From contig JAFGKV010000067.1 of assembly GCA_016928395.1 (NCBI GenBank), positions 1 through 33,571 of the forward strand: DNA of 33,571 nt. The letters are read 5' to 3'. The notes under the pieces are model-generated. The model made no database searches, had not been told where the DNA came from, and saw only the letters and a program-made list of their open reading frames with translations. The DNA comes from Candidatus Fermentibacterota bacterium. Its GTDB lineage: Bacteria; JAFGKV01. Positions 24,630 to 33,571 of the stretch are shown here, in pieces (the stretch's first letter is position 1; each line of letters opens with the position of its first letter). Position numbers and translations under genes: made by a program.

Positions 24630-25820
24630 CTACTTCTCCTTCCGACGGCTGTCTGCCGCATCGCTCTCGGCGCGGGCATTCGCCTGTTCGCGACGTTCGC
24701 TTGTCTCAGCCTTCTCGCGGTAGAAAGGGCGGGTCTGAATGGAACGTTCCTGTTCGGACGAAGGCGGTTTGTCGCGGGTCGGCTCGGGCGAAGATGGCTT
24801 GTCGCGGGGCGGCTCTGAACCCCGGGGCGTCGCCGGATCAGAACGGCGGGGTTCTATGGCCCGTTCCTTCGCGGGTGGATTCCTCACCCTGATCTCAGGC
24901 GCGGCCGGCCGGTCCGGGGGCGTGACTTCCTTCCAGCGCGGCGCAGGATCGTGAGGCTGACGGTCGCCACCGTCCTTACCATCCCTGGGCTGCACGTCGG
25001 TGGGATAGTCCCACTTCCGCTTCGAGCGACCCTCCCAGTACTCCCTCCCGGGCGCATTCTTGCGCTTCACGGTTGGGTAATCGCGGTTGGTCTTGCGCTT
25101 ATACCAATAGTAAGGCCGCCGGCCCCACGGGTTGTAAGGCGGGCGGTAGTAGTATGAATCATAACGGCTGTAGATGACGATCTCAAATGCGGGACAGATG
25201 GAGTAGTACGGGTCCCAATGCCGGGGGCTGTGGCAGTCATAGCACATGTAGCGAGGATACGGAACACGGCGTTCCACGTAGAAGCTCGTTCGATCGCTTA
25301 CGTAGTAGGGAGTCCCTCCATACGTCGGGGCAATCAACTGATTAATGCGTTCGATACCGATCTGAGGATCGGTCACAATGGTCTCCAGAACACCGCCTCC
25401 GGCTAGCTGCTCGGTGTACTCGTCCCACACAAACGGCTCCGTGCTGGCGACCACCACGACATACTCGATGCCGGTAGGTCCCGCGATGCTCATGTCCCAC
25501 TGTGCTTCCGCCGGTGGCAGAGTATGGGTGGCACGGCCCGAAACCCACCCGCCACGGTAGGGATCGGTGGGAAACAAGAGCTTCACGCGGCCTTCAGTGT
25601 CGACATCGTACACGACAAGGTAAGCGTCGCGGCTGACCTTGAAGTAGAGCTTGATCGTCTCGCCGGGATAGTAGACCGCCCGCTCGCCGCGGTCTGTCCA
25701 CACACCAACCTCCAAAGAAGGCAGCACAGGTTCCACAATGATCTCCCGGGCACCCTCGAAGTCAACTGCAAAGGCCGTACCGGCCATCACCAGCAAGAAC
25801 CCCAGAGTAACCGTGCGCAT
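24630..25820 (-). CDS. exported DUF4384 protein with CxxCH motif and proline-rich charged tail
   Basis: This 396-residue protein starts nine bases after AGGAG; the site overlaps the end of the upstream lipoprotein gene. A signal peptide (MRTVTLGFLLVMAGTAFA) precedes a DUF4384-like domain at about 35-140 (VYYPGETIKLYFKVSRDAYLV, DTEGRVKLLFPTDPYRGG). DUF4384 is a beta-sandwich seen in surface and caspase-linked proteins. The next part, about 185-245, is very rich in Tyr, Arg and Pro and contains Cys193-Tyr-Asp-Cys196-His197, formally a c-type haem motif, with a further Cys209. The tail from about 255 is low-complexity, with RDKPSSPEPTRDKPPSSE repeats. Haem attachment is speculative; zinc or disulfide is possible. 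It lies between the Fn3 lipoprotein and the sulfatase-like protein. Confidence 0.82.
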   Translation of the reverse strand: MRTVTLGFLLVMAGTAFAVDFEGAREIIVEPVLPSLEVGVWTDRGERAVYYPGETIKLYFKVSRDAYLVVYDVDTEGRVKLLFPTDPYRGGWVSGRATHTLPPAEAQWDMSIAGPTGIEYVVVVASTEPFVWDEYTEQLAGGGVLETIVTDPQIGIERINQLIAPTYGGTPYYVSDRTSFYVERRVPYPRYMCYDCHSPRHWDPYYSICPAFEIVIYSRYDSYYYRPPYNPWGRRPYYWYKRKTNRDYPTVKRKNAPGREYWEGRSKRKWDYPTDVQPRDGKDGGDRQPHDPAPRWKEVTPPDRPAAPEIRVRNPPAKERAIEPRRSDPATPRGSEPPRDKPSSPEPTRDKPPSSEQERSIQTRPFYREKAETSERREQANARAESDAADSRRKEK

Positions 25821-25825
25821 GGCTT

Positions 25826-26704
25826 CTAGCTCCTCTCTCTATATGATGCGTCACCACGGAGAGGCTTCGTCACCAGGAACGCCGGGGCATCGCCTCCCAC
25901 CTGGGGCGCAAGTTCCGGGTTGCCTTCAGCTGTCTGATACGCCCAATCCAGGGTCACGTTGTCAGACCCGACACGGGTCACTAAAATCTTGGCAAACCGA
26001 TTATCCCACGTCCACACCAGATAGGCGTGAGACTGGGAGACCATCATGCTTCCGCCCGGAACCCATCCATGTTCAGGGGCGATATCGATCTCATCCAGGC
26101 TCTGCACATAGCCCCAGGGAAGCACGTCGGTGTCCATGGCCGCGGCCGAGAGAAACAGCGACGAACCGCTACGCTCGAGATAGATGTCGGCGCCATTGTC
26201 ATCCCAGGGGACGATCATGGCGCTATTCCCAGAACGGTACCGGGAGAAGTCGATGCCGGCTTCATCAGGATAGACGGAGACTTCCCACACCCGCAGCCCG
26301 TATCCCGACGGACGGGGAGTGTCAAACACGGTTTCGTAGCTCAGATCGCTGGAGTTGCCGCATCGATCGAAAGCGTCCACGGCGAAATAGTATGTCCGTC
26401 CATTGCTGAGACTTCCCACGTAGTACGATGTGGCCGTTGTCGTGGCTATGCGGGTATAGTATCCTCCGGCGGTGTCATTCCAGTAGACGCCGTAGCCGGC
26501 AGTGTCGTAGTCTGGCGAAGGTTCCCACGAGAGCCGCACGCTCCCGTCGCCGGTTACGCTCTGCACACCTCGCGGCACGCCGGGAGCCGTATGATCGTAG
26601 CGACAGTCATTCTCCGGCTGAGGCCAATCAGGGCCATAGTTGTGAACTTCACAGGCAACCGCCAACAGAATCATCATCAACGCTGAAAGGGCTCTTGCGG
26701 TCAT
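25826..26704 (-). CDS. fibronectin type III lipoprotein
   Basis: This 292-residue lipoprotein has the signal MTARALSALMMILLAVAC (lipobox LAVAC, Cys18). The ATG at 26704 is chosen because AAGGAGG lies seven bases upstream. One fibronectin type III domain follows at about 38-130 (GVPRGVQSVTGDGSVRLSWEPSPD, shown as a landmark in part; YYVGSLSNGRTYYFAVDAFDRCGN). The C-terminal half is beta-rich with no family I recognise. It is the first gene of an operon with the DUF4384 and sulfatase-like genes, with only five bases to the next start. A probable sigma-54 promoter lies just upstream, next to a sigma-54 activator gene. A surface-binding role is inferred. Confidence 0.85.
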   Translation of the reverse strand: MTARALSALMMILLAVACEVHNYGPDWPQPENDCRYDHTAPGVPRGVQSVTGDGSVRLSWEPSPDYDTAGYGVYWNDTAGGYYTRIATTTATSYYVGSLSNGRTYYFAVDAFDRCGNSSDLSYETVFDTPRPSGYGLRVWEVSVYPDEAGIDFSRYRSGNSAMIVPWDDNGADIYLERSGSSLFLSAAAMDTDVLPWGYVQSLDEIDIAPEHGWVPGGSMMVSQSHAYLVWTWDNRFAKILVTRVGSDNVTLDWAYQTAEGNPELAPQVGGDAPAFLVTKPLRGDASYRERS

Positions 26705-26750
26705 GGGCGTTCCTCCTTCAACTGTGTGGCAAACCCGGCTGCCATGGGAG

Positions 26751-26766
26751 AGCAAGAACCACGCCC
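26751..26766 (-). promoter_or_regulatory. sigma-54 (-24/-12) promoter candidate
   Basis: The minus strand reads GGGCGTGGTTCTTGCT, matching the TGGCACG-N4-TTGCW consensus at the invariant GG (-24) and GC (-12), and with a complete TTGC. The predicted start is about 36 bases before the Fn3 lipoprotein ATG. The neighbouring upstream gene encodes a sigma-54 activator. Confidence 0.5.
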
Positions 26767-26783
26767 AAGTTGAATGACTTTTC

Positions 26784-26802
26784 GTGCAAGGTGTTCATGC
26801 AC
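26784..26802. promoter_or_regulatory. inverted repeat, possible activator-binding site
   Basis: GTGCA-N9-TGCAC lies about 18 bases upstream of the sigma-54 element. It may be a binding site for the adjacent NtrC-type regulator, which is inferred from position and symmetry only. Confidence 0.3.
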
Positions 26803-26858
26803 TCGGCGCACTCCGATGCGTCCTCCAGTGGGCGACAACCTGTACTCATCCGGGGACA

Positions 26859-28223
26859 TCACGCGCGGGGGCGACGCAGGCCATGCCGCTCGATCTTCTT
26901 GTACAGGTTGGAACGCTGCATCCCTATGTCCTGCGCCGCTTTCGTCACGTTCCATCCGGCCTGCTCAAGCCTGCGAGCGAGGTAGTCTCGCTCGGCGGAC
27001 TGAACGAACTGCTCGAAGGTCTCCCCATAGGGAAGGGCATCTGAGGATGCGCTCAAGCCTTGATCAATATGACGACTGAGCTGCTGTGGGCTGATCTCGG
27101 CCTGCGTGCAGAACAACGCCACGCGCTCCATTACGTTCTTCAACTCCCGCACATTGCCGGGCCACGGATGGGCCATGAGCAGCCCTCGCGCTGTATCCCC
27201 GAGACGAATTGGCGGTTTGCCCATCTTCATCGAGAAGGCCTCAAGGAAATGCGCTGCAAGAACAGGTATATCTTCCCGTCGTTCCCGCAGAGGCGGCACC
27301 CTGATTGGCACGACGTTCAGCCTGTAGTAGAGATCCTCGCGAAACCGTCCCTGAGCGACCTCGTCACCCAGCGGTTTGTTCGTCGCAGCGATAACGCGAA
27401 CGTCGACGCTGATGGCGGCATTCCCTCCGACTCTTGACAGCGTTCCTTCCTCCAGCACGCGAAGCACTTTCGCCTGTGCGGTCATGCTCATATCACCGAC
27501 CTCATCCAGAAACAGGGTTCCCTTGTGGGCCAGCTCGAACTTCCCCTGACGGCGAGCCGTTGCGCCGGTGAACGCCCCTTTCTCATGCCCGAATAGCTCA
27601 CTCTCGATCAGCTCTGCCGGCAATGCGGCGCAGTTCACCTCGACAAAGGGTTCATCCCTGCGGGTGCCGCCCGCATGTATGGCCCGGGCGACCAACTCCT
27701 TGCCGGTACCCGACTCCCCGGTGATGAGAGCTCGCGAGTCGGTTGACGCGACCAGCACAATGGTCGCGCGAAGACTCACCGTGGCCGGAGAAACGCCCAG
27801 AATGCTGTTCAATCCCGGCTGGCCCGTCCGGAGTAATCGCGCCTCCCGGGCGAGCCGACGCTGCCGGCCCGCGTTCCGCACGGTGACCAGAAGACGATCC
27901 TGATCTAACGGCTTCTCCAGGAAGTCGAATGCACCCAGCCTTGTCGCCTGTACCGCCGTAGATAGGTCGGCATGGGCCGAGACCATAATGACTTCCGGTC
28001 GGTTGTCCTCCGCCGAGAGCCGCTCCATCATCTCCAGGCCATCCATTCTTGGCAGCCGAAGATCCAGCAGCACGACGTCAAAATGAGATTTGTTGATCCT
28101 CTCCAGTCCCTGCTCCCCCGAGGAAGCCTCGTCCACCGTCATCCCGGCGTACTCCATCACCATGCGCATTCCTTCACGCACGGGGGCTTCGTCGTCGACA
28201 ATGAGAATGCGGAGTTGTTCCAC
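26859..28223 (-). CDS. NtrC-family sigma-54-dependent response regulator
   Basis: This 454-residue regulator has three complete parts. The receiver domain (about 5-118) has the acidic pair at 10-11, phospho-acceptor Asp54 (VVLLDLRLPRMDG) and Lys104 (FLEKPLD). The AAA+ domain has Walker A GESGTGKE at 169-176, the sigma-54 contact loop GAFTGA at 216-221 and Walker B GTLFLDEVGD at about 235-244. The C-terminal Fis-type helix-turn-helix reads WNVTKAAQDIGMQRSNLYKKI. I chose the GTG at 28223 because GGAGG lies five bases upstream; a longer start at 28259 has none. No histidine kinase gene is in the window, so it is an orphan here. It should activate sigma-54 promoters, with the one at 26751-26766 as the nearest candidate. 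Confidence 0.95.
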   Translation of the reverse strand: MEQLRILIVDDEAPVREGMRMVMEYAGMTVDEASSGEQGLERINKSHFDVVLLDLRLPRMDGLEMMERLSAEDNRPEVIMVSAHADLSTAVQATRLGAFDFLEKPLDQDRLLVTVRNAGRQRRLAREARLLRTGQPGLNSILGVSPATVSLRATIVLVASTDSRALITGESGTGKELVARAIHAGGTRRDEPFVEVNCAALPAELIESELFGHEKGAFTGATARRQGKFELAHKGTLFLDEVGDMSMTAQAKVLRVLEEGTLSRVGGNAAISVDVRVIAATNKPLGDEVAQGRFREDLYYRLNVVPIRVPPLRERREDIPVLAAHFLEAFSMKMGKPPIRLGDTARGLLMAHPWPGNVRELKNVMERVALFCTQAEISPQQLSRHIDQGLSASSDALPYGETFEQFVQSAERDYLARRLEQAGWNVTKAAQDIGMQRSNLYKKIERHGLRRPRA

Positions 28224-28296
28224 CGTTGCCTCCAGACCAGATGCCCATGAATGCGCCATCAGCTACAAGAATTCCCCTCCATTGTCAAGCCGGGCC

Positions 28297-28686: not shown

Positions 28687-28715
28687 TTGCCCCCCCAACC
28701 TCGGGAGCGTATACT
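28687..28715 (+). promoter_or_regulatory. sigma-70 promoter candidate of the first Ig-like lipoprotein gene
   Basis: TTGCCC (28687-28692) and TATACT (28710-28715) are separated by 17 bases. The same CGTATACTG -10 context recurs at 32601-32608 before the paralogous gene, at nearly the same distance from its ATG (about 80 bases). Confidence 0.5.
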
Positions 28716-29331
28716 GCGAGGCCGATGCACGTGGAAATCAAATACCCCGCTGCAAGCCTTCGCTCTCACACCCGTCCTCGAAGGGAGTCATTGGATGATG
28801 CGATTCGGTGTGGTTCTCCTCACTCTGGTCGTGCTGTTACTCTCATGTACATCCAAGTCGGAATCACCTGCCAGCCGGAAGGTCTCTACCGACACCGCAC
28901 TCACGGCAGGCAAGCCTGGGCCGGCCAAACTTGTACCTCGCAAGCCTCCAGCCAAGCCGGCCACACGAGTTGACCCCGCCTACGCGTACAAGCTCCTCAA
29001 ACATGCTACCCCGCAGGAGATGCAGGCGGAATCGGTAGCCGTTGTGTCGGTGAGACTCAAGAATGCATCGAACCGTGCGTGGACGACGAAGGGCCCCGTC
29101 AAGCTGGGCTACTACTGGCTGGATGCCGCGGGCAAACGGATTCCCAAAGCCCAGGGCCGTGCCCTCGTGCGAAAGGATACGCCTCCCGACTCGACGGTGG
29201 GGATCCGGTGCCGCGTCAAGGCCCCGACGGCCAAGGGTGAGCATATTCTCGTCTATGACATGATTGAGGACACAACCTGGTTCGGCAACAAGGGCGCCCC
29301 AAGGACTCGCGTCTCCGTCAAGGTGAAGTAG
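28710..29331 (+). repeat. direct duplication, copy 1
   Basis: From the -10 element to the stop codon this segment parallels 32602-33221. The coding parts are about 80% identical by eye and equally long, with the same CGTATACTG -10 context. The two copies flank the acyltransferase pair. Confidence 0.7.
28795..29331 (+). CDS. Ig-like surface lipoprotein, copy 1
   Basis: This is a 178-residue lipoprotein with the signal MMRFGVVLLTLVVLLLSC (Cys18) and the start ATG at 28795, seven bases after AGGGAG. A Pro/Lys/Ala-rich linker runs to about 62. A single beta-sandwich domain follows, with the pattern VVSVRLKNASNRAWTTKG, LGYYWLDAAGKRI, TPPDSTVGIRCRVKAP and YDMIEDTTWFGNKG. This resembles the Ig-like (NBR1/CARDB-type) domain found in many bacterial glycosyltransferase-linked proteins. 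The gene is paralogous to 32685-33221. It lies upstream of the MBOAT gene and probably belongs to the same envelope-glycan function. The exact ligand is unknown. Confidence 0.82.
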   Translation: MMRFGVVLLTLVVLLLSCTSKSESPASRKVSTDTALTAGKPGPAKLVPRKPPAKPATRVDPAYAYKLLKHATPQEMQAESVAVVSVRLKNASNRAWTTKGPVKLGYYWLDAAGKRIPKAQGRALVRKDTPPDSTVGIRCRVKAPTAKGEHILVYDMIEDTTWFGNKGAPRTRVSVKVK

Positions 29332-29591
29332 ACCCGAGTCTCTTGTGGGGCGGGGGTGGCGACAGCGTCGGATTCGTCGGCCGTGGCTCGACCCATTAGA
29401 AACCACCCGCCCGGAAGGCATATGGAGCTTGGCCGATGCGCCCTTCTCATGCTCCACAGTAGCCTCTGCAGATTCCCCCGCGATCTGCCGCCTTATTCGC
29501 GCAGGCACGGGGTCCTGCACCTATTCAGAGTGAAGGGCGGCCGGCTGGACATGGGTACTAGCCGTCTCATGATGGGGGGGCGAATCCTTCA

Positions 29592-31025
29592 TTGACCTTC
29601 TCCAGCGGCGTCTTCTTGTTCTACTTCTTGCCGCTCTTTCTCCTGGTGTACGCTGTAGTGCCTCAGCGACATCGGCTGATGGTGATTTCGCTGGCCAGCT
29701 ACGTCTACTGCGCCTGGTGGCGGCCGGGATTCGTCCTGCCCCTGGCCATCGTCACCATCATTGGATTCGTCGGCGGCGTCGTGATCGACAGGGAACGATC
29801 CCACGGTCGCAAAGGCGAAGGATGTTTGCTGGCCACCCTCATCGCACTGCTGGGGCTTCTGACATACTTCAAGTATAGCGTGTTCGCCGTGGACATCCTG
29901 AACGCCGTTCTTCGTCGTACAGGAGCCCCTCCGATCAGGATCGCCGATATCATCCTCCCGGTCGGGCTCTCGTTCTACACCTTCAAGACCGTCAGCTATA
30001 TCATCGACGTCTACCGAGGGGCCTCTCCTCCGGCGGCGAATCTCCTGGCGTTCGCGACCTATGTGGCCATGTTTCCCCAGCTCGTCGCCGGCCCGATTGG
30101 CCGCTACAAAGCGACATCGGACGAACTGCGCTCGCGGAACCACTCAGTGGAGCTGTTCTACCGTGGAGTGCTCTTCTTCCAGATCGGACTCGCCGGCAAG
30201 GTATTGGTGGCCGACACGTTGGGTTCCGTTGCAGACCAGGCATTCGACTCGGGCGTGGGAGGGCTCGCTGATGCATGGATCGGGGCACTGGCATACACCT
30301 TCCAGCTCTTCTTCGACTTCGCGGGCTACTCAGACATGGCGATCGGGCTTGGCCTCATGATGGGCTTTCACTTCCCCGTGAACTTCAACTGCCCCTACCG
30401 GGCCGTCAGTGTCACGGACTTTTGGCAACGCTGGCACATCACGCTTTCGACTTGGCTTCGTGACTATCTGTTCTTGCCGGTGGCATACCTTGGCTCACGC
30501 CGGGTTCGGGATTTCCGCCTCTTTGGGTTCAGCCAGGACTACTATGTCTACGCGCTGGCGGCGCTGGTGACCATGTCATTGGCGGGTCTCTGGCACGGTG
30601 CAGGTTGGAGTTTCGTTGCATGGGGTACATACCACGGGCTCTGGCTGGTGATCGACCGGTTCCTTACCAGAAAGCGACTCTGCCGTCACACGCCGCGTCC
30701 ATTGCGTGTCTTTGCGACCTTCTTGATTATCCTCTTCGGATGGATTCTCTTTCGGTCGGGAACGCTACGGGACGCGGGGGCCTATCTCAGGACAATGCTG
30801 GCGCTGGGCTCTGATCCCTTGGCGCCTCTTGCTCTCGAGATCCGCCCGATTCATCTCCTGATAGGTGCTCTCGCGGCCGCCTGGGCTTGGTTAGCGCCGC
30901 CGGCGCACGACCTCGTTCCCACTGCTGGGCCCGCCGCAGTCTTTCTGCTTCAGCTTGTCTTCATCATCAGCATCCTTCATCTGCATTTCCACGAGCATGT
31001 CCCCTTCCTCTACTTCCGATTCTGA
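29592..31025 (+). CDS. MBOAT family O-acyltransferase (AlgI-like)
   Basis: This 477-residue polytopic membrane protein transfers acyl groups, usually acetyl, across the membrane to an extracytoplasmic polysaccharide. The first start that gives the standard N-terminus (MTFSSGVFLFYFLPL) is TTG at 29592. A preceding small ORF overlaps it as TTGA, and no ATG is available upstream before a stop. Family marks are YFKYSVF, LPVGLSFYTFKTVSYIIDVYRG, FPQLVAGPI, TDFWQRWHITLSTWLRDYLFLP (His282) and SLAGLWHGAGWSFVAWG with the presumed catalytic His335. Ten or more membrane helices are expected. The next gene encodes its usual partner type, an AlgX/AlgJ-like SGNH protein. The target polymer is unknown; alginate synthesis genes are not seen here. 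Confidence 0.93.
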   Translation: MTFSSGVFLFYFLPLFLLVYAVVPQRHRLMVISLASYVYCAWWRPGFVLPLAIVTIIGFVGGVVIDRERSHGRKGEGCLLATLIALLGLLTYFKYSVFAVDILNAVLRRTGAPPIRIADIILPVGLSFYTFKTVSYIIDVYRGASPPAANLLAFATYVAMFPQLVAGPIGRYKATSDELRSRNHSVELFYRGVLFFQIGLAGKVLVADTLGSVADQAFDSGVGGLADAWIGALAYTFQLFFDFAGYSDMAIGLGLMMGFHFPVNFNCPYRAVSVTDFWQRWHITLSTWLRDYLFLPVAYLGSRRVRDFRLFGFSQDYYVYALAALVTMSLAGLWHGAGWSFVAWGTYHGLWLVIDRFLTRKRLCRHTPRPLRVFATFLIILFGWILFRSGTLRDAGAYLRTMLALGSDPLAPLALEIRPIHLLIGALAAAWAWLAPPAHDLVPTAGPAAVFLLQLVFIISILHLHFHEHVPFLYFRF

Positions 31026-31089
31026 AGCCCGGGAACTTCTCCCCGGAAATGGCGAGAGGTCGACCCGAGGCATGTGTGGGGCCTGGTGG

Positions 31090-32277
31090 ATGAAGAGTGT
31101 CGCACGATGGTCTGTGGTGGTGCTGTTCCTCGTCGTCACGGCCGGCACTGGGATAGTCGATTCCCTAACGCCGCTGCCCATGCCCCGTTTGGTGGGGAGA
31201 GAGAAGGCTTCCGAAGAGCGACTGAGACGAGAAGCAAGGATCGCCGACGGATCCAAGGCTCGACTCGTCGAACGGTCTCAGCGCATGCGGTCACGCGTCC
31301 GACAGGCGGCTGCATGCGAGTATGGCTTCGTCTTGTACCGATGGCTCCACGAGGTTCGCCCTACTGTAGTTCGAGGGAAGGACGGGTGGCTCTTCCTGAA
31401 AAGCCGGGCCTGTCCTCGCCGGATCATACATGATGCCGCCCTCTCGAGGCTGGCATCGCAGATAGCGGTGATCTCAAAGCGGCTGGCCGATCAGGGCTCA
31501 CGACTTGTGATGGTACCAGTCCCCAGGAAGGCCGTGCTTTGCGCCGATCGCCTTCCATCCTGGTGTAATTCGCAAGCCGCCGTCGATAGCGCGTTCGTCG
31601 CTCATCTGACAGGCAACGGCGTCATCTGCGTCGATCTCCTGCACGCTCTGAGGGCTTCCTCCGCGTCACCCTACTACTACAAGCTCGGAAGCCACTGGAA
31701 TCATAAGAGTAGGATAGTCGCAGCCGAGGAGATGTGCCGCGTCGCGGGCATTCTCGCCCCTGAGACTGATAGGCTCACGCGAATCCTTCCCCTTGGTCAG
31801 CGACCCGAGGACTTTGACGTCCTCAAGTACGCAGGCATCGAACCCAATCGGCGGATCAAACGGCGCCTTGCGGGCACGACCTCTCTATGCTACAGGGTTT
31901 CGTCGCCGCGGGGAAAGGCGGCGAGGTCCGACGTGGACTTGCCGATACTGCTTTTTGGATCCAGTTTCTCCAACACTCCCCTTCCCGATCTGATCCATCA
32001 CTACTCGACTATTCCCGTGGAGCGACACGCGCGGCCGGGCGTCAAAGCGCTGGATTTCCTTGCCAAATACCTTCGTGAGGCCGGCGGGCGACTTGCGGCG
32101 GGAGACCGGCCGCGGACGATATTCGTTGAACTGCCTGTCCACTCTGTGTTCGATGGGTTGGATAGTAGCATCTCGTCGCTGTTGAGCCTTCTGCCGCCTT
32201 CCCGCCCGATTCTCGCGTCATCCGAAGGACGATCTGGAATGAGGCACGACCTCAAGAAGGACCCAGTCGTTGACTGA
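31090..32277 (+). CDS. AlgX/AlgJ-like SGNH-fold protein, partner of the MBOAT protein
   Basis: This protein has 395 residues from the ATG at 31090; an ATG at 31072 is also possible, and neither has a strong ribosome site. One N-terminal membrane anchor (VARWSVVVLFLVVTAGTGIV) is followed by an extracytoplasmic domain. VVRGKDGWLFLKS is the common start of AlgX/AlgJ-like acetyltransferase domains, and YYYKLGSHWNHKS aligns with their DxHW motif. LPILLFGSSFSN aligns with the GDSFS nucleophile block. His202 and Ser292 are kept. The catalytic Asp of DxHW is replaced by Gly200, and the Asp of GDS by Ser. It may therefore have weakened or changed activity, or bind glycan without catalysis. It lies 64 bases after the MBOAT gene. 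Confidence 0.8.
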   Translation: MKSVARWSVVVLFLVVTAGTGIVDSLTPLPMPRLVGREKASEERLRREARIADGSKARLVERSQRMRSRVRQAAACEYGFVLYRWLHEVRPTVVRGKDGWLFLKSRACPRRIIHDAALSRLASQIAVISKRLADQGSRLVMVPVPRKAVLCADRLPSWCNSQAAVDSAFVAHLTGNGVICVDLLHALRASSASPYYYKLGSHWNHKSRIVAAEEMCRVAGILAPETDRLTRILPLGQRPEDFDVLKYAGIEPNRRIKRRLAGTTSLCYRVSSPRGKAARSDVDLPILLFGSSFSNTPLPDLIHHYSTIPVERHARPGVKALDFLAKYLREAGGRLAAGDRPRTIFVELPVHSVFDGLDSSISSLLSLLPPSRPILASSEGRSGMRHDLKKDPVVD

Positions 32278-32453
32278 CGCCGCGTCCCGGCACTCCGCCT
32301 ACCATCTGGAGTCGTAGCCTAGACGGCAACACGCTTGGTGCGAGTTCGCATGGTCGGCAGAATCAGTCCAGGAGACTCGGAGAAAGTCGGCCGCCGTGGG
32401 GCATCGCTCCCTACCTATGTGGCCTCTGGATGGACCCGCACACCCGCGTGCAT

Positions 32454-32469
32454 AAGCCCCCATGGGCTT
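32454..32469 (+). terminator. small hairpin after the SGNH gene
   Basis: A perfect 6-bp stem with a four-base loop lies about 180 bases after the stop codon. There is no T-tract. Confidence 0.25.
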
Positions 32470-32601
32470 CTGCCATCGAAATCCCCGTACTCACGCGCAC
32501 GCATTCTGTCGAGGAGCCAGATCACCCTTGGAACTGGCCTCTGGTTACCGGGGATCGCCTTCGGTGCAGCAGACTGCCTGCTACACGAGACCGCGCGACC
32601 G

Positions 32602-32607
32602 TATACT
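32602..32607 (+). promoter_or_regulatory. -10 element of the second Ig-like lipoprotein gene
   Basis: TATACT in the context CGTATACTG is identical to the -10 before copy 1, at nearly the same distance from the ATG. The -35 (near CTGCTAC) is poor. Confidence 0.4.
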
Positions 32608-32684
32608 GTCGGGCCAGTGTAAGAGTAAGTCGAACACCCCTCTCCGGGTCTTCCCCCACACACCTTTTCGAAAGGAGTCCCTGA

Positions 32685-33221
32685 ATGATGCGACACGGTG
32701 TGGTCCTTCTCGCCGCGGTCGTGCTCTTGTTCTCATGTGCCTCCAAGTCCGAGCCCCCGGCCAAACGCGGGGACTCCGCCTCCGGCGCGCTCACCGCGGG
32801 CACACCCGGTGCGGCCAAGCCTATCCCTGGCAAACCTGCGGCGAAGCCTGCCAGGCGCGTTGACCCTGCGTTCGCGTACAAGCTCCTCAAGCATGACACT
32901 CCGAAGGAGATGCGCTCGGAATCCGTGACGGTGGTGTCGGTGAGAGTAAGAAACTCCTCCAACCGCACGTGGCTGGCCAAGGGCCCCATCAAACTGGGCT
33001 ACTATTGGCTGGATGCCGCGGGCACGCGCATCCCCAAAGCCCAGGGGCGCGTTCTTGTGAGGAAGGATACCCCTCCCGACTCGACGGTGGGCATCCGCTG
33101 CCGCGCCAAGGCCCCGGCGACCAAGGGTGAGCATGCCCTCGCCTATGACATGATCGACGGCACGACCTGGTCCGGCAACAAGGACGCCCCAAGGACTCGC
33201 GTCCCCCTCAAGGTCAAGTAG
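32685..33221 (+). CDS. Ig-like surface lipoprotein, copy 2
   Basis: This 178-residue paralog of the lipoprotein at 28795-29331 has the same length, the signal MMRHGVVLLAAVVLLFSC (Cys18), a similar linker and the same Ig-like domain (VVSVRVRNSSNRTWLAKG, LGYYWLDAAGTRI, TPPDSTVGIRCRAKAP, YDMIDGTTWSGNKD). The start has AAAGGAG six to seven bases upstream. The Trp-Phe of copy 1 (TTWFGNKG) is Trp-Ser here, a possible difference in the ligand-binding loop. Substitutions are frequent in the linker and at third codon positions, so both copies appear to be under coding constraint. The gene closes the cassette with the acyltransferase pair. Confidence 0.82.
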   Translation: MMRHGVVLLAAVVLLFSCASKSEPPAKRGDSASGALTAGTPGAAKPIPGKPAAKPARRVDPAFAYKLLKHDTPKEMRSESVTVVSVRVRNSSNRTWLAKGPIKLGYYWLDAAGTRIPKAQGRVLVRKDTPPDSTVGIRCRAKAPATKGEHALAYDMIDGTTWSGNKDAPRTRVPLKVK

Positions 33222-33571
33222 CCCCAATCACGTACCGAAGCCACGCAACCGTTGCGGAGGTAGAGGCGTTTTCTCCTGTCGCCTGCTGCACGAGGGGGAG
33301 TTGACGGTTATCCTGCTCCGCGGGAGAATGCAGCGCGAGCCGCGATCAGTGAAGGCGACTGGCGCGAGTACTATTTCCCGCCCGAAGCCTCCACCCCCGC
33401 GGCCTGATCAGTAGCGCAGGATCAGGGCGATGCGTTGGTACTCGCGGAGGAGGTCTTTCTCCACGAAGACCACTCTGCCCTTCTTCGGATGTTCCGCGTT
33501 TGCGAGACGGGGTGGGGAGTACGAAAGACGTTGCCATTTAAGGCGATTTCCGTCTCTCGGTCAGCTTCTTC
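33222..33571. other. right-edge region after the second lipoprotein
   Basis: No complete gene is seen in these 350 bases. A minus-strand open frame without a start lies at 33408-33560. I see no RNA gene or terminator with a T-tract. Confidence 0.4.
33408..33560 (-). pseudogene. startless ORF fragment, possible frameshifted 3' end of a gene
   Basis: On the minus strand a frame ending at a TGA (33408-33410) reads plausibly as protein (AEHPKKGRVVFVEKDLL, EYQRIALILRY) but has a stop at its left end (33561-33563) and no good start codon. The frame beside it is open to the window edge (EADRETEIALNGNVFR) and ends soon after. A frameshift or a decayed gene would explain both. It could also be chance. 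No family is recognised. Confidence 0.25.

Follow-up and report, generated by a model that had tools for sequence, protein, structure and literature searches.

A predicted MBOAT-SGNH acylation gene pair between duplicated Ig-like lipoprotein genes in Candidatus Fermentibacterota

The four genes and their setting

The window, by which we mean the whole stretch of 33,571 nucleotides of Candidatus Fermentibacterota DNA that was analysed, is the entire contig C97 of the source genome (G000). Near its end lie genes for two lipoproteins and, between them, for a predicted MBOAT acyltransferase and an SGNH protein of the AlgX/AlgJ kind; all four open reading frames were confirmed on the + strand, at the positions and in the one-strand layout given by the original prediction. 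The features are:

28710..28715, + strand: promoter-like -10 of lipoprotein 1 (TATACT), set 17 nt after a -35-like hexamer (TTGCCC, at 28687); a consensus match only
28795..29331, + strand: lipoprotein 1, 178 aa, made up of a signal peptide with LLSC, a linker rich in Pro, Ala and Lys, and a domain resembling the NBR1-type Ig-like domain
29592..31025, + strand: predicted MBOAT acyltransferase of 477 aa, beginning with TTG; LWHG contains His335, and the C-terminal FLYFRF contains Tyr474
31090..32277, + strand: SGNH/AlgX-AlgJ-like protein of 395 aa with a membrane anchor at the N terminus; Gly200 and His202 lie in GSHW, Ser292 in GSS
32602..32607, + strand: TATACT upstream of lipoprotein 2, homologous with the lipoprotein 1 hexamer and lacking a good -35
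32685..33221, + strand: lipoprotein 2, of 178 aa like its paralogue lipoprotein 1; lipobox-like LFSC

The intergenic gaps are, in order, 260, 64 and 407 bp, only the MBOAT and SGNH genes being closely spaced; the four do not form a single tight operon. The wider context after lipoprotein 2 is missing because the contig ends 350 bp past that gene (at 33571). Upstream of the four genes (window 24630-28259), the genes for an NtrC-type response regulator, an fn3 protein and a DUF4384 protein form a trio that is conserved with another genome of the same family, G002 (L124 13063-16814).

The acyltransferase pair and its active sites

The MBOAT protein matches PF03062 (E=7e-19; 68.7 bits against a cut-off of 27), a domain found in 100 of the 386 genomes sampled. 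Its TTG start was fixed by alignment, its relatives beginning M(V/F)FSS; His335, within LWHG, is invariant in the A4 alignment; and its C-terminal FLYFRF fits the FXYXXF acyl-shuttle motif, whose tyrosine in PatA is auto-acetylated and shuttles the acetyl group to a serine of PatB (PMC12148441). The protein encoded next to it matches the ALGX family PF16822 (E=1.3e-23; 84.5 bits against 26.5), present in 39 of 366 genomes, and its closest solved structure is AlgJ (4o8v; E=1e-5). The claim that the middle two genes form an MBOAT-SGNH acylation pair of the AlgI/AlgJ and PatA/PatB kind is, with both families over their cut-offs, the LWHG histidine and the FXYXXF motif present and a gap of 64 bp on the same strand, a well-founded prediction.

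As in the AlgI-AlgJ/AlgX system of Pseudomonas alginate O-acetylation, an MBOAT is combined with a PF16822 SGNH protein, and the active-site His and Ser align; the window differs in having Gly200 for the Asp of DxH, one SGNH gene and not two, and no alginate synthesis genes. The PatA-PatB system of peptidoglycan O-acetylation is similar in that an MBOAT with a C-terminal FXYXXF adjoins an SGNH protein, but the SGNH protein of the window belongs to PF16822 (AlgX/AlgJ) and is not assigned to PatB. DltB, the MBOAT of D-alanylation, was considered and rejected as an identity for the MBOAT protein: the DltB model (TIGR04091) recognises it with E=8e-56, but its 189.9 bits do not reach the 375 required of an equivalog, and here it is the MBOAT itself that carries the shuttle motif.

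A cluster of a related kind is conserved between another contig of the source genome (G000:C58; L035 3664-10216) and G002 (G002:C97; L036 6083-12357); in it, a secreted-type protein of 664-669 aa (the C58 copy matching LamG weakly) is followed by an MBOAT, an SGNH protein of 554-560 aa and an SGNH protein of 339-350 aa. The SGNH protein of the window is 23-26% identical to those of these canonical clusters. We rejected recent copying from the C58 cluster as the origin of the window pair, since its MBOAT lies outside the well-supported C58/G002 clade. Arrangements related to the C58 cluster, some with fused SGNH domains, were also seen at G120:C145, G085:C69 and G186:C35. Outside the phylum, the best four matches to the window SGNH protein (P0004) are encoded just behind a same-strand MBOAT or fused near one.

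Aligned with AlgJ, the SGNH protein keeps the PVPRKA segment, His202 and Ser292, and has Gly200 at the position of the AlgJ catalytic Asp, the DxH of the catalytic Asp-His-Ser triad being replaced by GSHW (window 31687-31698). The Asp of DxHW is present in 29 of the 35 distinct relatives listed with the motif (a by-eye count), and Gly stands at this position in three PF16822 proteins (those of the window, L104 and L119), each encoded beside an MBOAT gene. Because the AlgJ catalytic Asp is Gly200 here, full activity of the SGNH protein is uncertain: alginate is no longer acetylated in vivo with AlgJ D193A or AlgX D174 variants, while AlgJ triad alanine variants retain about 20% of esterase activity (PMC4148444). 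Structure prediction of the SGNH protein alone gave an unusable model (mean pLDDT 33). A pair in decay, its SGNH protein inactive for want of the catalytic Asp, would account for Gly200, for the GSS in place of the usual GDS and for a codon-usage score below that of the neighbouring genes, and would agree with the in vivo loss in the Asp variants; we nevertheless consider it unlikely, as the 395-codon frame is open, the His, the Ser and the PxxKA motif are retained, AlgJ itself has GTS and not GDS, the MBOAT-linked L104 and L119 share the Gly, and AlgJ triad variants keep part of their esterase activity. Gly for the catalytic Asp beside an MBOAT may thus be a recurrent variant rather than a sign of decay.

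The duplicated Ig-like lipoproteins and their relatives

Both lipoproteins are, as originally described, paralogues of 178 residues with a common -10 context: they share 75% identity at the protein and 79% at the DNA level, and their homology extends about 80-90 bp upstream, through the TATACT of each copy, with none downstream. Each gene has, judging from these upstream matches, its own promoter-like region. The two represent a lineage-specific duplication, with dN of 0.149 and dS of 0.651 (NG86); their dN/dS ratio is 0.23 by NG86 and 0.16 by YN00, and therefore both copies are under purifying selection.

The leaders are hydrophobic with Cys18, and neither copy has a strong lipobox (LLSC and LFSC, with L or F at -2); relatives have boxes of the VACA, LVSC or IGAC type. 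The best and only credible domain is N_BRCA1_IG (PF16158), which matches five of the six members of the lipoprotein family (best E=1e-6), although the two window copies, at 21.8 and 15.9 bits, stay below the curated cut-off of 28 and thus show a resemblance to this NBR1-type Ig-like domain; it would be the sole domain of these small secreted lipoproteins. Searched against solved structures, the lipoprotein alignment returned chance-level matches only, and structure prediction (A1) gave an unusable model with a mean pLDDT of 45.

The source genome carries four copies of the lipoprotein gene (two in the window and one each on C200 and C3), and one gene each is present in G001, of the same genus, and in G002; the phylum is represented in the sample by these three genomes alone, which leaves little power for co-occurrence analysis within it. 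A scan for close relatives with a single lipoprotein as query found nothing, the six-row lipoprotein alignment picked up G001 and G002 together with three Chloroflexi loci, and a plasmid search gave no match. The copies on G000:C3 (L008 7318-8412) and G001:C234 (L014 8-775) are orthologous, both following a gene for a PF00144 hydrolase of the beta-lactamase type; genes for a sulfatase and an S41 protease flank the copy on C200, and the G002 copy lies near those for Wzz, an O-antigen ligase and a uracil-DNA glycosylase.

Across the bacterial domain, the Ig domain was found in 20 of 386 genomes (the source genome, G001 and G002 included), elsewhere mostly within larger proteins with GT4 glycosyltransferase, radical SAM-SPASM, F5/8 or CBM9 domains. 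The suggested resemblance to Ig domains linked to glycosyltransferases is borne out by a fusion to a GT4 glycosyltransferase, seen once in the sample and as one among several kinds of fusion. A protein of 1481 aa in genome G178 (L076 2681-7123) has ubiquitin, F5/8 and NBR1-type Ig-like domains, a combination that would be odd in a bacterial genome, if G178 is one.

The relation between the lipoproteins and the pair

The original prediction had the lipoproteins presenting or binding the acylated polymer, a link that the neighbourhoods of their relatives speak against. In the 6 to 14 kb read at each of the C200, C3, G001 and G002 loci, neither an MBOAT nor an AlgX-type gene was detected, and none was found near any of 19 distant Ig-domain loci or of three Chloroflexi loci. 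Linkage outside the window thus stands at 0 of 26 loci (four of six lipoprotein genes of the phylum and 22 of 22 distant Ig-domain loci being without it), as judged by profile searches in limited flanks, which very divergent SGNH genes could escape. Conversely, the canonical MBOAT-SGNH-SGNH clusters (G000:C58 and G002:C97) have no Ig-like lipoprotein. The lipoproteins occur mostly away from MBOAT and SGNH genes, an outcome that the original prediction had itself named as refuting the link.

We think it probable, therefore, that the locus combines two independent neighbours: an acylation operon and an unrelated, duplicated Ig-like lipoprotein. For the former, an acyl path may be inferred from PatA/PatB, because the MBOAT protein ends in FLYFRF and keeps the LWHG His335. 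The MBOAT would take an acyl group, probably acetyl, from acyl-CoA and load it onto Tyr474 of its own FLYFRF tail; outside the membrane the group would be handed to Ser292 of the SGNH protein, which would pass it to an envelope or exported glycan, our inferred substrate. The NBR1-type Ig-like lipoproteins would have an envelope role that is not specific to acylation. Counting against such separate neighbours are the two window copies flanking the pair on one strand (with the contig ending 350 bp later), the sampling of only three genomes of the phylum, and the single Ig-glycosyltransferase fusion, which is compatible with a glycan role.

Some of the same observations favor a dedicated cassette, in which the lipoproteins present or bind the acylated polymer and replace the second SGNH protein or the carbohydrate-binding module of other systems: the lipoproteins stand on both sides of the pair on the same strand, the pair has one SGNH gene where the clusters of G000:C58 and G002:C97 have two, and an Ig-like domain is joined elsewhere to a GT4 glycosyltransferase. 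Yet no second case exists among the 26 other loci, each lipoprotein gene has a promoter-like region of its own, and other single-SGNH pairs are without such a lipoprotein in the stretches read; we therefore hold a dedicated cassette to be quite improbable. Still more doubtful, in our judgment, is that the lipoproteins, as partners of this pair, not only replace the second SGNH or carbohydrate-binding part but also compensate for the Asp-less SGNH site.

The original prediction further saw in the direct duplication a recombination route for gain or loss of the core. A direct repeat of about 530-620 bp does flank a 3.4-kb core, and the syntenic locus of G002, marked by the genes for the NtrC-type regulator, the fn3 protein and the DUF4384 protein, carries upstream neither a lipoprotein gene nor an MBOAT or SGNH gene, the entire block being absent. 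(In G001 the contig begins within the DUF4384 gene and is uninformative on the presence of the block.) Efficient homologous recombination in E. coli needs about 25-30 bp of identity. The repeats here are not near-identical, and recombination between the copies appears unlikely because their DNA identity is 79% and their longest identical run 20 bp. Moreover, G002 is without both copies and not only one, and no one-copy remnant turned up; GC and GC3 are ordinary, except that GC3 is raised in lipoprotein 2; and the window proteins scanned included no recognisable transposase or integrase. A mobile block bounded by direct repeats, and gained or lost through the lipoprotein copies, is accordingly the reading to which we give least credence.

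Read as an acylation operon with a separate duplicated lipoprotein as neighbour, the locus would add an MBOAT-SGNH pair of known kind from a lineage with poor sampling, together with a small family of Ig-like lipoproteins that is so far confined to this lineage. The recurrent Gly for the catalytic Asp in PF16822 proteins encoded beside an MBOAT is the more useful side result, as it bears on how strictly the triad is needed.
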